Program-made: the position numbers and the translations under genes | Shown here: positions 13,669 to 19,190 of the stretch, piece by piece | How the letters are laid out: every line of letters starts with the position of its first letter | How positions within the stretch are numbered: position 1 is the stretch's first letter | Assembly: GCA_021811435.1 (NCBI GenBank) | Contig: JAJZOR010000002.1 | Coordinates: forward strand, 1 to 64,000 | Direction: 5' to 3' | DNA length: 64,000 nucleotides | Origin: Microcaldota archaeon | GTDB lineage: Archaea; Micrarchaeota; Micrarchaeia; Micrarchaeales; Micrarchaeaceae | The notes under the pieces: model-generated | The model's database searches: none | What the model was told of the DNA's origin: nothing | The model's input: only the letters and a program-made list of their open reading frames with translations

Positions 13669-13886
13669 GAAAAACACCTATCTGCTTTATATCCTAATAC
13701 GAATGTGCTTTCATATATTAAAACACTTGCTGGGCCACGGGTTAGCGCGCTACACTTGCTGTCCATACGCACAGCGACCTTTGGCATGGGCTGCCGACGC
13801 GCTTTGCCATCAGGCGCGATCCCACTTTGAGGACAAGGTATTTAAGGCTTCAATTTAAAGCGATGGTTATATAGGATGTGCATTTT

Positions 13887-14627
13887 ATGAGGCTGCGCGT
13901 TAATACTGGCATAAGCATCTTGGACAAAATGCTCAACAATGGCATACCCGAGGGGGATCAGGTCGCGCTGGCGGGAAGTGCGGGTGTGGGCAAAACTCTG
14001 ACCGCATTCGAGTTCCTATACAAGAACGCGAAGGCCGGGCACAGTTCGCTTTTCTTCTCGCTTGAGGAATCGCCTATACAGATAGTCGAGAACGCGAAAG
14101 CCGCGTTCACGGACTTCAATGACATAGACGATATAATAGCGAAGGGCGTGCTGACCGTGGAGGGCGCGGACATAAAGGACACCATACGGGCGGCTGGCAG
14201 CGGCGACCAATCGCAGATGAACTACGTATTCAGTTCTGTGGTCAACCAGATATCGAATTCCATAAAGGCGCATAATGCTACCAGGGTCGTCATAGACTCG
14301 CTGACCACATTCAAGCTGCTGCTGAAAGAGCCGCTCACCTACAGGCTGCTTTCGCTCAGCCTCTTAAGCGTGCTCAAGGAGTTGAAGGTTACTTCGCTGC
14401 TGACGCTTGAGGTGATGACCGGGAGCAGGGACCACCTCCAGTACCAGCCGGAATTCTTCATATACGATGGCATTATAGCGCTATACGCCACTGCCGAGGA
14501 GAGGAACAGGATACACAGCCTGGAGGTGCTCAAGATGCGAGGCACCAAGCACAGTTTCAGGACTGTGCCGTATGTCATAGCTGACAACGGGATAAATCCA
14601 ATCATAGCCGTGGAAAACGTGCTTTGA
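13887..14627 (+). CDS. KaiC-like RecA-superfamily ATPase (first of pair)
   Basis: This 246-residue protein has a single KaiC/RadA-type ATPase domain. It opens with RVNTGISILDKMLNNGIPEG, followed by Walker A GSAGVGKT (about 34-41), FSLEES (the KaiC-type glutamate pair) and Walker B RVVIDSLTTF. The C-terminal part holds EVLKMRGTKHS, typical of archaeal KaiC-like proteins. These proteins act as signalling ATPases and have been linked to archaellum, DNA and stress functions; the role here is unknown. I chose the ATG at 13887 rather than an upstream frame start. A paralog follows 18 bases downstream. Confidence 0.85.
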   Translation: MRLRVNTGISILDKMLNNGIPEGDQVALAGSAGVGKTLTAFEFLYKNAKAGHSSLFFSLEESPIQIVENAKAAFTDFNDIDDIIAKGVLTVEGADIKDTIRAAGSGDQSQMNYVFSSVVNQISNSIKAHNATRVVIDSLTTFKLLLKEPLTYRLLSLSLLSVLKELKVTSLLTLEVMTGSRDHLQYQPEFFIYDGIIALYATAEERNRIHSLEVLKMRGTKHSFRTVPYVIADNGINPIIAVENVL

Positions 14628-14645
14628 GATTCATGGGGTTTTTGA

Positions 14646-15362
14646 ATGGCTACCGAGCAGCGGTTTTTCATAGAGCGCGTAGTCACAGGAGTGAACGGGC
14701 TCGATGACCTCCTTTACGGCGGCATACCCGCTAGGAGCCAGGTGCTCATATCCGGAAATTCAGGGACAGGCAAGACGCTCCTGTCCTTCGAGATACTCTA
14801 CAGGAACGCGGAGGTAGACATACCCAGCACTTTCATAACCTTTGAGGAGACCGTGGAGTCCGTGATCTCTAATGCAAAGAACGCATTTACCTACTTTGAG
14901 GACATAGACGAGCTCGTTACATCCAGGAAGCTGAACATAATGGCCGTGCCCATAGTGACCAGCCTGAAGAGCAGGGAGGCTTTCGAGACCGTGCTGGCTG
15001 ACCTGAACAAGGAGATAGAGTCGAACAGCTCCAAGATCATAGTCATAGATTCGCTCTCCACCCTCAGGACGCTTTACGATGAGGACAGGGCCTTTACCAG
15101 GTCGGTAAACCTCATGATAGCGAACTTCAGGCAGCTAGGGGTCACGACGATAGTGACCATGGAGACGCCGACCATAGAAGTGGCCCAATCAAGCGGCCTT
15201 TATGGCACATTCATGTTCGACGGCATCATAGGACTCGCCACCACGAGCGCGGAGGGCAGCTTCCAGTACATGATAAGGATAGTGAAGATGAGGAGCACAA
15301 ACCACCGCAACAATCCTGTGCCTTATGAGATAACGCAGAACGGCATAAACATATTCAAGTAA
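14646..15362 (+). CDS. KaiC-like RecA-superfamily ATPase (second of pair)
   Basis: This 238-residue paralog of the previous gene has GVNGLDDLLYGGIPARSQVL, Walker A GNSGTGKT (about 37-44), FITFEETVES and Walker B KIIVIDSLSTL, then RIVKMRSTNHRNNPVPY near the end. The two proteins align throughout without a second ATPase domain, so they may form a mixed ring in place of the double-domain KaiC. Its stop overlaps the end of a TnpB relic on the opposite strand, which means the element came to rest exactly at its 3' end. Confidence 0.85.
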   Translation: MATEQRFFIERVVTGVNGLDDLLYGGIPARSQVLISGNSGTGKTLLSFEILYRNAEVDIPSTFITFEETVESVISNAKNAFTYFEDIDELVTSRKLNIMAVPIVTSLKSREAFETVLADLNKEIESNSSKIIVIDSLSTLRTLYDEDRAFTRSVNLMIANFRQLGVTTIVTMETPTIEVAQSSGLYGTFMFDGIIGLATTSAEGSFQYMIRIVKMRSTNHRNNPVPYEITQNGINIFK

Positions 15363-16187
15363 ACTGCCGCTCGGCAAGCCCTGTGACATTCATCAGTTTA
15401 GGGTTATGCGGCACAGTTGCGCTGGAACCGGCAACTCCATCGGAATGCCATATGGGTCCGTTTATAGTGACTCTCCTATTGGAAATCTGGACAAAATCAG
15501 ACTGGTTAGGTTTATGGCCTCTCCGCTCTAACAGGGGTTTTATTGCGATATTAAGGCTCGCATGCCTATCAGAGTTTACTACAGCTCCGCATTCCTTGCA
15601 CCTGAACAGGGCATAGTTTCCACTGCCATGTCCCTTACCAACAGCACCGCAATGGTTGCAGAGCTTGGACGCATGCCATGCATCAACGACGTTCAGCGTA
15701 ATATTCTTGTCAAAATACCTCTGCACGAGGTTCTTCCTGAAAGTAAAGAAGGGAATCCGCATGACTTCACGATCGAATCTCTTTCCTTTAGGACTGAATC
15801 GTTTGAGGTCTTCAACGGGAACGTCTGTATCGTGTCGCGGAGCCATTTCGGTGATGTCCCTCACGACTTCGCCTATTCGGTTCTTGACAAAGTTATATCC
15901 ATTTCGTTTAGTCCTCTTAAGCGCCTTATTCACATAGGAGCTTCCGGCATCGGCATAACTTTGGAGGATATACTTCCTTTCAAAATCCCCTGAAGGATGT
16001 TGGATTTCCCGCTCACGGTGTTAAAGGAGGTGCGTCGTTTGCAATTTGAATATACCTTGCGATGGAGGTCCATAAACCTATGACAGAAGTCTCTCTCGTA
16101 CCACAGTTTATTGAATTCGGCAATTGCTAGAGAAAGTACCTCCTGCAGTCCAGCATTCTTCTTAGAAGTCCCGTCGGTTTGCAACAA
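15355..16187 (-). pseudogene. TnpB (IS200/IS605-type) relic with internal deletion
   Basis: Two minus-strand frames form one broken TnpB. The 5' piece (16187-15930) keeps LAIAEFNKLWYERDFCHR. The 3' piece (15933-15355) holds the RuvC-II region (VPVEDLKRF), a CNHC/CKEC zinc ribbon and the RuvC-III motif NSDRHASLNIAIK. Together they give about 277 residues against the usual 370-430. The wedge region and the RuvC-I segment with the first catalytic Asp are missing, so nuclease activity is not expected. The relic abuts the stop codon of the KaiC-like gene. No TnpA gene and no element ends were found. Confidence 0.8.
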
Positions 16188-16327: not shown

Positions 16328-16738
16328 CTATTGGGCTTTGCCTACTATCGCAATCGTATCCTTCACCGCGCTTAGGGAGGGGCGTACGGAGAGCGCTCTG
16401 AGCATGCCAAGCATCGACTTTTCGTCTACAGTCCTCCCCGCTGCGAGCAGGGTGAAAGCTGCGGCTATGTATATCAAGTAATTCTTGCCCATTTGGTCTG
16501 TTATTAACCTGGCCAGCCCGTCATCCAGTGTCGCGCCTGCATTTAGCAGCAACTTCGCCATGGTCTCGCTGTCTACCAGTTCGCGGCCGGCGAACATCAA
16601 CGCGATTGCTGCGAAGAAGTGCGGAAGGATTACGTCTGTGCTTTTGTCGTGCGTTGGTATGGCGCCGAGATACGACCTGAACGCGGCGTCCATCTTCATA
16701 TGCACAGTTCCGGACAAGGACTCTGCGAGCTTTAGCAT
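16328..16738 (-). CDS. tandem stalk-P1-like repeat protein (second of pair)
   Basis: This 136-residue helical protein is a paralog of its upstream neighbour. It holds two repeats of about 48 residues: the first begins LPHFFAAIALMFAGRELVDS (about 39-90) and the second begins YIAAAFTLLAAGRTVDEKSM (about 90-136). Each resembles the N-terminal dimerisation domain of archaeal ribosomal stalk protein P1 (IYAALLLxxAGKxIxEExVKxVLxAxG). The hinge and acidic tail that bind elongation factors are absent. The start codon overlaps the upstream stop (ATGCTAA), so the two are translationally coupled. The P1 relation is my inference from pattern; an unrelated helical repeat is possible. Confidence 0.65.
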   Translation of the reverse strand: MLKLAESLSGTVHMKMDAAFRSYLGAIPTHDKSTDVILPHFFAAIALMFAGRELVDSETMAKLLLNAGATLDDGLARLITDQMGKNYLIYIAAAFTLLAAGRTVDEKSMLGMLRALSVRPSLSAVKDTIAIVGKAQ

Positions 16739-17274
16739 GGAAGCTTCTGCCCGATTTGAGCGTCCGGGCCGTTATCCTCACCCTGAGCGCGCCCTTCTAC
16801 AGATTTGTATATCGCTATTGCTTCAGCGGTCACATTGAAGTTCGGTGCTACGCCTATCGCCATTTCCAGCCTTGCAACGCTTTCAGGTAGCGGGACGGCA
16901 CCTGACGACTCTAGGAATGCAGAGAGCGCTATGGCAACGAAGTGAGAGCCGAAACGGAATGAGCTTATCAGATCAGCCATTTGCAGGGAGAATTTGAACC
17001 CGAGCGCCTCGACTACATTCCGGATCTCAGTCTTGTTGAAAGGCCGGCCGCAGAAGTCTAGCAGCAGCAACGAAACGAAGTGCGGCAGGACGCCGCTTTC
17101 TATGGCGTTCCTGAAATCCGGATTTGCGAACGCCTGCGTAAGGGTGACTTTGAGGCATTTTGATATGCTGCCGCTTATGGCGCTTATCAGTTTGTAGCCT
17201 TGCTCATATGCAGGGTCGCGCCCTGGAGGAATCGGAGCGACGGTGCCTGCAGCCGTGTCATCGTACATCTTCAT
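16732..17274 (-). CDS. tandem stalk-P1-like repeat protein (first of pair)
   Basis: This 180-residue protein is paralogous to the downstream gene. After a helical N-terminal segment (about 25-60, KLISAISGSISKCLKVTL), it carries two repeats: LPHFVSLLLLDFCGRPFNKT (about 64-115) and FVAIALSAFLESSGAVPLPE (about 112-160). The LPHF start, the Gly-Arg turn and the amphipathic helices recur at the same places in both proteins. The C-terminus is short, polar and ends in Cys, without the acidic stalk tail. A TATA-like CTATATAAAG lies just upstream on the minus strand. The function is unknown; the two products probably bind each other. Confidence 0.65.
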   Translation of the reverse strand: MKMYDDTAAGTVAPIPPGRDPAYEQGYKLISAISGSISKCLKVTLTQAFANPDFRNAIESGVLPHFVSLLLLDFCGRPFNKTEIRNVVEALGFKFSLQMADLISSFRFGSHFVAIALSAFLESSGAVPLPESVARLEMAIGVAPNFNVTAEAIAIYKSVEGRAQGEDNGPDAQIGQKLPC

Positions 17275-17552: not shown

Positions 17553-17744
17553 TCAGAGCTTCTTTACGTTCTTTGCGCGAGGTCCGCGATCTCCAGCCTC
17601 AACCTCGTATTCGACAGCATCGCCCACTGCTAGCGTCGCACCACCTTCGATTGCTGAGGTGTGCACATACACATCCTTACCGTCGTCGCCGGTTATGAAT
17701 CCAAAACCGCGGGCCGCATTGAACATTTTCACCTTTCCTTTCAT
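17553..17744 (-). CDS. cold-shock domain protein
   Basis: This 63-residue protein is one cold-shock domain (OB fold) that binds single-stranded RNA or DNA. The sequence has [20 protein letters not shown] with RNP-1 (GFGFI) and VYVHTSAI as RNP-2, then a short basic end. The ATG at 17744 gives the canonical CspA start; earlier codons add an unusual leader. The minus-strand TATACTTA near 17781-17789 is a likely promoter. Cold-shock proteins are patchy in archaea, so acquisition from bacteria is plausible but not shown. Confidence 0.92.
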
Positions 17745-17774
17745 CATATCACTTTTCAAACTTACTTTGTACAA

Positions 17775-18425: not shown

Positions 18426-18563
18426 TCAAAGCTCGGTTTTGATTTCTTGTTTGATTCTTAATCCTCTCTTCTTGCTCTCCTTCCAAATTTTACGTTGGCT
18501 GCTACATATCATGCAGCCTCCTTTGCTACTCTTTTTACCTCTACCCAAATAATCACGTGCCAT
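18426..18563 (-). CDS. 45-residue basic CxxC protein overlapping vapC
   Basis: A short frame on the minus strand starts at ATG 18563, inside the last codons of vapC, and ends at TGA 18426. It encodes a Lys/Arg-rich peptide that begins MARDYLGRGKKSSKGG, has one CMIC pair at residues 17-20, then a basic helix with WKESKKRGLRIKQEIKTE. The overlap with the vapC stop suggests translational coupling. A lone CxxC could bind metal as a dimer. I do not recognise the family. Coding status is supported by the clean overlap and composition only. Confidence 0.45.
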   Translation of the reverse strand: MARDYLGRGKKSSKGGCMICSSQRKIWKESKKRGLRIKQEIKTEL

Positions 18564-18975
18564 CGTAAGTCTTCAATCCTATATTTGTGCATTTAACAGA
18601 TATATCTTTATCAAATGTAAACAATGGGGCACCTTCTGAGATACTTATTGCAACATACACTGCGTCATAAAAAGGGATTTTCTGCTCTTTTGCTATCTTT
18701 ATAGATTCTTTAATTACAGAATTGGTACTTACCACAATCAAATTATCCCAAATTGACCTAAAACTATCTACGGCGATATCGAATTGTCTATGGTTTATAT
18801 CCTTAAGCAATATAAGATGCTTCCATAGCACGTTTATCGTTTCTGGCAGCAATATATCCGGTGCAATTATTGGCTCACCCATCTCTGTTGCTTTATAAAA
18901 TAATCGCGCAGCAATATCCGAATATTCCTCATGTATTACTAGTTTAATTGCGGCGCTAGCATCTATAGTAATCAT
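18553..18975 (-). CDS. vapC: VapC toxin, PIN-domain ribonuclease
   Basis: This 140-residue PIN domain is the toxin of a VapBC pair; such enzymes cleave tRNA or other RNA. The acidic active-site residues are visible: Asp in MITIDASAAIKL, Glu in LLPETINVLW, Asp in FYDAVYVAIS and Asp in FTFDKDI. It starts 3 bases inside the end of the antitoxin gene, so production is coupled. It lies in the integrated element, where toxin-antitoxin pairs commonly stabilise the element. Confidence 0.9.
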   Translation of the reverse strand: MITIDASAAIKLVIHEEYSDIAARLFYKATEMGEPIIAPDILLPETINVLWKHLILLKDINHRQFDIAVDSFRSIWDNLIVVSTNSVIKESIKIAKEQKIPFYDAVYVAISISEGAPLFTFDKDISVKCTNIGLKTYDGT

Positions 18976-19190
18976 ATGCCATACCTATCTTCCTTTATAA
19001 GTAAAGTACTGTCCCCCCTGACTTTTATCTTGTCTGAATTCTTTTTTATTTTTAGGAGCATTTTATGCAATTTCATTGATTTAGCCCTGCCAATAATATA
19101 CTCGCGAATATCTTCACTCCAGTTAGTGTTGGCTTCTTTCATCAATTCCCTAATCTCTTTCGAGACTCTTATCGTAATTACTTCGGACAT
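18972..19190 (-). CDS. vapB: VapB-type antitoxin
   Basis: This 72-residue protein begins with SEVITIRVSKEIRELMKEAN, a ribbon-helix-helix DNA-binding segment, followed by a basic linker and a C-terminal part that should wrap the toxin. The stop overlaps the vapC start. The minus-strand TATA box at 19221-19230 and two TTGTATACAW palindromes just upstream suggest autoregulation by the VapBC complex. Confidence 0.85.
   Translation of the reverse strand: MSEVITIRVSKEIRELMKEANTNWSEDIREYIIGRAKSMKLHKMLLKIKKNSDKIKVRGDSTLLIKEDRYGI

Follow-up and report, generated by a model that had tools for sequence, protein, structure and literature searches.

All archaea and eukaryotes possess the ribosomal stalk protein P1. 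In its archaeal form (aP1/L12e; TIGR03685, PF00428; structure 3A1Y), a single copy of the N-terminal domain is followed by an Ala/Glu/Lys hinge and a C-terminal LFG factor-binding motif in a protein of about 100-110 aa, the gene of which adjoins that for P0. The N-terminal domain attaches P1 dimers to the P0 spine (PMC3794596), the tail recruits factors, and aP1 moreover binds the translational ATPase ABCE1 (PMC6791870). KaiC-like ATPases (PF06745; for example, PH0284/2DR3 and ArlH) are found in archaea as ATPase modules that have been proposed to act as signalling hubs (PMC5847659). Here, we describe a gene pair located in a window (i.e., the whole analysed stretch of 64,000 nucleotides) from a micrarchaeal genome of 1.1 Mb in 25 contigs. 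It encodes P1-like repeats and lies close to two genes for KaiC-like ATPases, a combination absent from the literature searched.

A four-repeat protein in two genes

The two ORFs and the repeats within them are arranged as follows, all on the reverse strand:

16732..17274 (-): first gene (180 aa) with a helical N-terminus, followed by repeats 1 and 2; orthologous to the N-terminal half of a protein with four repeats
16328..16738 (-): second gene (136 aa) with repeats 3 and 4; orthologous to the C-terminal half of that protein
16732..16738 (-): 7-nt overlap ATGCTAA, comprising the start of the second gene and the stop of the first (ORF coordinates)
16993..17067 (-): P1-like repeat, first gene residues 70-94 (P1-only HMM)
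16795..16944 (-): diverged repeat 2, first gene residues 111-160 approximately (family alignments; direct P1 match weak)
16502..16618 (-): P1-like repeat, second gene residues 41-79 (P1-only HMM, domain 1)
16358..16471 (-): P1-like repeat, second gene residues 90-127 (P1-only HMM, domain 2; TIGR03685)

The coordinates bear out the two ORFs and the 7-nt overlap of the original prediction. Its tandem repeats hold in both proteins when profiles and orthologues are consulted, but from the sequences alone the 136-aa protein shows only a weak internal repeat (21 of 2000 shuffles scored as well in pairwise alignment) and the 180-aa protein none of significance (608 of 2000), so that it is the profiles and orthologues that carry the repeat claim. 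The two proteins do match each other across two repeats, a pairwise result that none of 2000 shuffles equalled. The LPHF motif, taken earlier as a start common to all repeats, occurs only in repeat 1 of each protein.

The notion of a coupled pair is correct in that there are two overlapping ORFs; in two genomes of the same genus (G004 and G003), however, these correspond to the N- and C-halves of one gene of 312 or 357 aa that covers both. In G004, the reading frame runs continuously across the site of the overlap, and the split in the window falls into the linker between the two halves. In the family tree, the 180-aa protein groups with the N-halves of loci L124 and L125 and the 136-aa protein with the C-halves of the G004/G003 gene, each with a support of 1.00. 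The pair is thus very likely one four-repeat protein split at its linker. Relative to G004, identity amounts to 54% for the N-half (dN 0.35, dS 2.73) and 50% for the C-half (dN 0.44, dS 1.69), and the resulting dN/dS values of about 0.13 and 0.26 make both halves look constrained at the sequence level.

An assembly indel or the decay of a fused gene into a pseudogene could also give rise to two ORFs and would fit either of the functional readings discussed below. The unbroken gene in the sister species and the presence of a shortened standalone family copy in the same genome speak for such an event, which we nonetheless regard as improbable: the break lies in a short linker and leaves both halves whole, the Met at which the second gene starts is also present in G004, both sides have a low dN/dS, and another genome of the genus (G001) carries two adjoining family genes with a 4-nt overlap. 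The position of the split, the constraint on both halves, and the arrangement in G001 render a functional split likely, in which case the two genes would form one functional unit, a four-repeat protein made of two chains.

Origin from the P1 dimerisation domain

A profile built exclusively from the N-termini of 30 canonical micrarchaeal P1s (P1-only HMM) recovers 75 of the 77 listed family entries at E<1e-3, while the best of 385 shuffled proteins reached 6.6 bits, which excludes chance at the profile level. Two separate domains are recognised in the 136-aa protein (residues 41-79 and 90-127, E=6.8e-8) and one clear match in the 180-aa protein (residues 70-94, protein E=1.8e-3), with repeat 2 of the latter being weak. 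Conversely, a family profile of the window proteins and their relatives matches all 30 canonical P1s of related genomes (E 3e-13 to 5e-10) and none of the remaining ORFs of those P1 loci, aligning P1 residues 1 to about 45 with either repeat 1 or repeat 2. Searched against the PDB, the same profile has its best match in 3A1Y, the N-terminal domain of archaeal P1 (E=1.1e-8), and all other matches below 0.05 are P2 proteins. The independent NCBI model for archaeal P1, TIGR03685, matches 21 of 26 family members; in the 136-aa protein, it covers residues 90-130 (E=2.5e-4) at a score (21.3 bits) far below the model's cut-off of 100 bits. As neither window protein matched any Pfam or NCBIfam entry above cut-offs, naming them from these collections was rejected.

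The profile-profile comparison and the structure prediction envisaged with the original prediction agree with this assignment. A probability of 97% to P1 was obtained by hhalign, and AlphaFold2 models of the 136-aa protein (pLDDT 83.5) and of L064, a typical relative with two repeats (pLDDT 89), are all-helical, with 3A1Y as the first Foldseek match in both cases (rmsd 0.8 A over 44 columns and 0.6 A over 43 columns, respectively, probability 1.00). The E-values that Foldseek assigned to these matches, 0.37 and 0.28, are weak, which is expected when only 43-44 residues are spanned. Taken together, the P1-only HMM, PDB search, hhalign, TIGR03685, and Foldseek bear out the predicted origin, and it is near certain that the repeats derive from P1.

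What is shared with archaeal P1 is thus the three-helix N-terminal segment and its predicted fold, whereas the last part of the 58-residue P1 domain is unmatched. Family members contain two or four copies of the segment instead of one (about 136-430 aa) and an added long N-terminal helix that P1 lacks, but neither hinge nor LFG motif. The predicted loss of the factor-binding tail is fully confirmed, the C-terminal motif being found in none of 75 family proteins as compared to 30 of 30 true P1s, and Ala, Glu, Pro, and Lys account for a fraction of 0.28 of the last 30 residues versus 0.65 in P1. With the tail absent, the repeats would be limited to serving as an interaction surface. Unlike P1 genes, those of the family do not adjoin P0; the true P1 of the window genome is a separate gene on contig C6, directly after P0 (L034), and the repeat genes are on C20. 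Neither P0 nor P1 was found near family genes in the neighbourhoods read. A built-in P0 spine in the N-terminal helix was considered and rejected, since hhalign returned no similarity between the two (probability 1% or less). At the P0-P1 loci of these Micrarchaeota (L031-L060), P0 measures only 275-306 aa and P1 keeps its factor-binding tail. Judging from the usual length of P0, these micrarchaeal P0s seem to lack the customary C-terminal hinge and factor-binding tail.

Distribution of the family

Across 295 scanned Micrarchaeota genomes, strong family matches are confined to two families (f1 and f2) of one order; the remaining genomes yield a single weaker match each, which we read as their P1. 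The family consists of two- or four-repeat proteins, with up to about a dozen per genome, and its tree comprises a standalone branch of two-repeat proteins, a branch linked to KaiC in which the window proteins are placed, and expanded four-repeat branches. Genomes with expansions contain 15-22 matches at the level of half-proteins, canonical P1 included; in one genome of about 1 Mb, seven family ORFs stand in tandem (L109:4946-11334) beside sugar-nucleotide and glycosyl genes. The window's own genome additionally harbours a shortened, possibly decaying 84-aa copy of the standalone branch (L203:1480-1734, on contig C16).

A pattern scan of named genomes, which was built on six close sequences and hence under-samples, placed related contigs in Candidatus Micrarchaeota. 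Within the reach of the search pattern used, no viral relatives were found, and a viral origin was rejected on that basis. In line with the original prediction, no described family of this kind emerged from Pfam, NCBIfam, or the literature searched, the last of which contained neither a P1-derived family nor a micrarchaeal KaiC partner. We know of no non-ribosomal family built from the P1 dimer domain.

Linkage to KaiC-like ATPases

Two KaiC genes precede the repeat genes in the window:

13878..14627 (+): KaiC-A, single-domain KaiC-like ATPase paired with KaiC-B (PF06745, E=9.7e-47; KaiC-A clade)
14646..15362 (+): KaiC-B, KaiC-like ATPase with a single domain, member of the partner clade (PF06745, E=2.2e-46; 379 bits to the KaiC-B profile)

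Like other archaeal modules of this type, both are single-domain proteins with a Walker A and, mostly, a Glu-Glu motif: GNSGTGKT and ITFEE in KaiC-B, GSAGVGKT and SLEES in KaiC-A. The ATPases at 13878-15362 thus possess a KaiC domain that includes both the Walker A motif and the catalytic pair of Glu residues. No KaiA- or KaiB-type Pfam match was obtained in the repeat proteins. In the window, the repeat genes are convergent with the KaiC genes and lie outside the KaiC operon. TnpB-like fragments (Cas12f1-like TNB domain, E=1.2e-10) occupy positions 15355-16187 between KaiC-B and the repeat genes, and only about 11 nt separate the two in G004 (L124); from this sequence comparison, a transposon insertion seems to have moved them apart.

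In a set of 23 genomes, selected in part for their multi-repeat copies, 12 of 76 KaiC genes are within 1 kb of a family gene, as compared to 0.84 expected, and clusters of two KaiC genes with a family gene occur in 9 of 42 further genomes not chosen for KaiC. Overall, 18 genomes from 14 genera carry the window's subfamily beside genes for KaiC-like ATPases or in one operon with them. The number of genomes may be 17, as G208 and G286 (L184 and L185), listed as different genera, give the same cluster scores and lengths and a contig may be misbinned. Gene-order reading revealed the following arrangements:

KaiC-KaiC-family, with 4-nt overlaps: L186, L188, L191
Family-KaiC-KaiC: L123, L184
Family-KaiC: L116, L120, L192, L194
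Family-KaiC-KaiC-KaiC: L114
Four family genes-GNAT-KaiC-KaiC: L110
Convergent family/KaiC: window, L124

The KaiC-B clade is nearly confined to family-linked loci. Its profile separates members (>=327 bits) from other KaiCs (<=217 bits) in the sampled loci, with a few intermediate scores of 255-284 bits in the scan of the phylum. KaiC-B at >=360 bits is present in 20 of the 295 genomes, all of which carry the KaiC-linked subfamily; in 18 of these the two are adjacent (G001 and G003 being the exceptions), and the copy next to KaiC-B in G242 and G073 belongs to the expanded four-repeat type. A Fisher value for the co-occurrence, based on counting by hand and blind to common ancestry, is given no weight here. 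Conversely, a related protein occurs in the absence of strict KaiC-B in genus g43 (G085, G234, G097, G247), and neither the single-copy standalone branch nor most expanded four-repeat copies are near KaiC. Since these members lack KaiC-B or KaiC neighbours, KaiC is not the partner of the family as a whole. KaiC-B itself was always accompanied by the repeat protein, whereas the repeat protein can occur in the absence of KaiC-B; KaiC-B therefore probably acts through the repeat protein.

Possible function

A copied, tail-less P1 domain travelling with a KaiC pair suggests that a part of the ribosome was recruited into a regulatory system. Tandem duplication of the P1 dimerisation domain, with hinge and factor-binding tail dispensed with, probably gave rise to the four-repeat protein, and each two-repeat half probably folds as an intrachain pseudo-dimer in which the two P1-like units would pack together much like the two separate chains of a P1 dimer. 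The window's branch is likely functionally linked to KaiC-B, and from the genomic context, the KaiC pair is its most likely partner: the subfamily would work specifically with KaiC-A plus KaiC-B, the repeats might serve as an adaptor or scaffold bound by the ATPase, and ATP-dependent changes of the latter could control what the scaffold holds, implying a regulatory instead of a ribosomal role. Such an adaptor or scaffold role is our best current reading, and we consider it reasonably probable that the P1 domain was exapted in this way for a KaiC-type regulatory ATPase that it would bind. More tentatively, a stalk domain may have been exapted in one reduced archaeal lineage as a dedicated partner of KaiC-type ATPases, forming a regulatory module that operates outside the ribosome or physically links to it, and then radiated into an adaptor repertoire.

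The original prediction had offered two possibilities, binding of P0 or P1 to block factor recruitment and a scaffold unrelated to ribosomes. The former gained no positive support, given the distance of the genes from P0 and P1 and an N-terminal helix unlike P0; the latter is the better fit in view of the association between the subfamily and KaiC-like ATPases, which had gone unnoticed. In a broader form, the ribosomal alternative would have the repeats take up sites on the P0 spine or form pairs with P1, thereby cutting factor recruitment or bringing a KaiC ATPase to the ribosome. The domain is homologous to the very portion of P1 responsible for contact with the P0 spine, a version devoid of the tail would act as a dominant competitor, and aP1 likewise binds an ATPase, ABCE1 (PMC6791870). 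Yet such a stalk modulator appears unlikely, as the family genes cluster with KaiC rather than with P0/P1 in the neighbourhoods read, their fast divergence and large paralogue expansions fit a single conserved P0 site poorly, and the N-terminal helix has no P0-like feature. Still less likely, in our view, is a general interaction scaffold that has no single partner, with the KaiC link restricted to a single branch and other tasks falling to the standalone and expanded copies. The confinement of a consistent KaiC link to one branch, the 15-22 half-protein matches, and the tandem arrays would all be in keeping with it, but the co-occurrence of the window's own branch with KaiC-B in 20 of 20 genomes argues against it. 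Should the link between this branch and KaiC prove functional, it would give KaiC-like ATPases a named partner and turn hypothetical proteins of DPANN archaea into testable components.

Other genes at the loci

In genus g10 (L186, L188, L191), the KaiC-KaiC-repeat operon is located beside DnaJ/DnaK-like chaperone genes, and pilin-like proteins recur as neighbours of the family (cluster C1; raw recurrence only). In the window, a cold-shock-domain protein (17553-17774) is encoded directly upstream of the repeat genes on the same strand, and a PIN-domain protein and the small ORF that overlaps it on the upstream side (18553-19190) resemble a toxin-antitoxin pair of the VapBC type.
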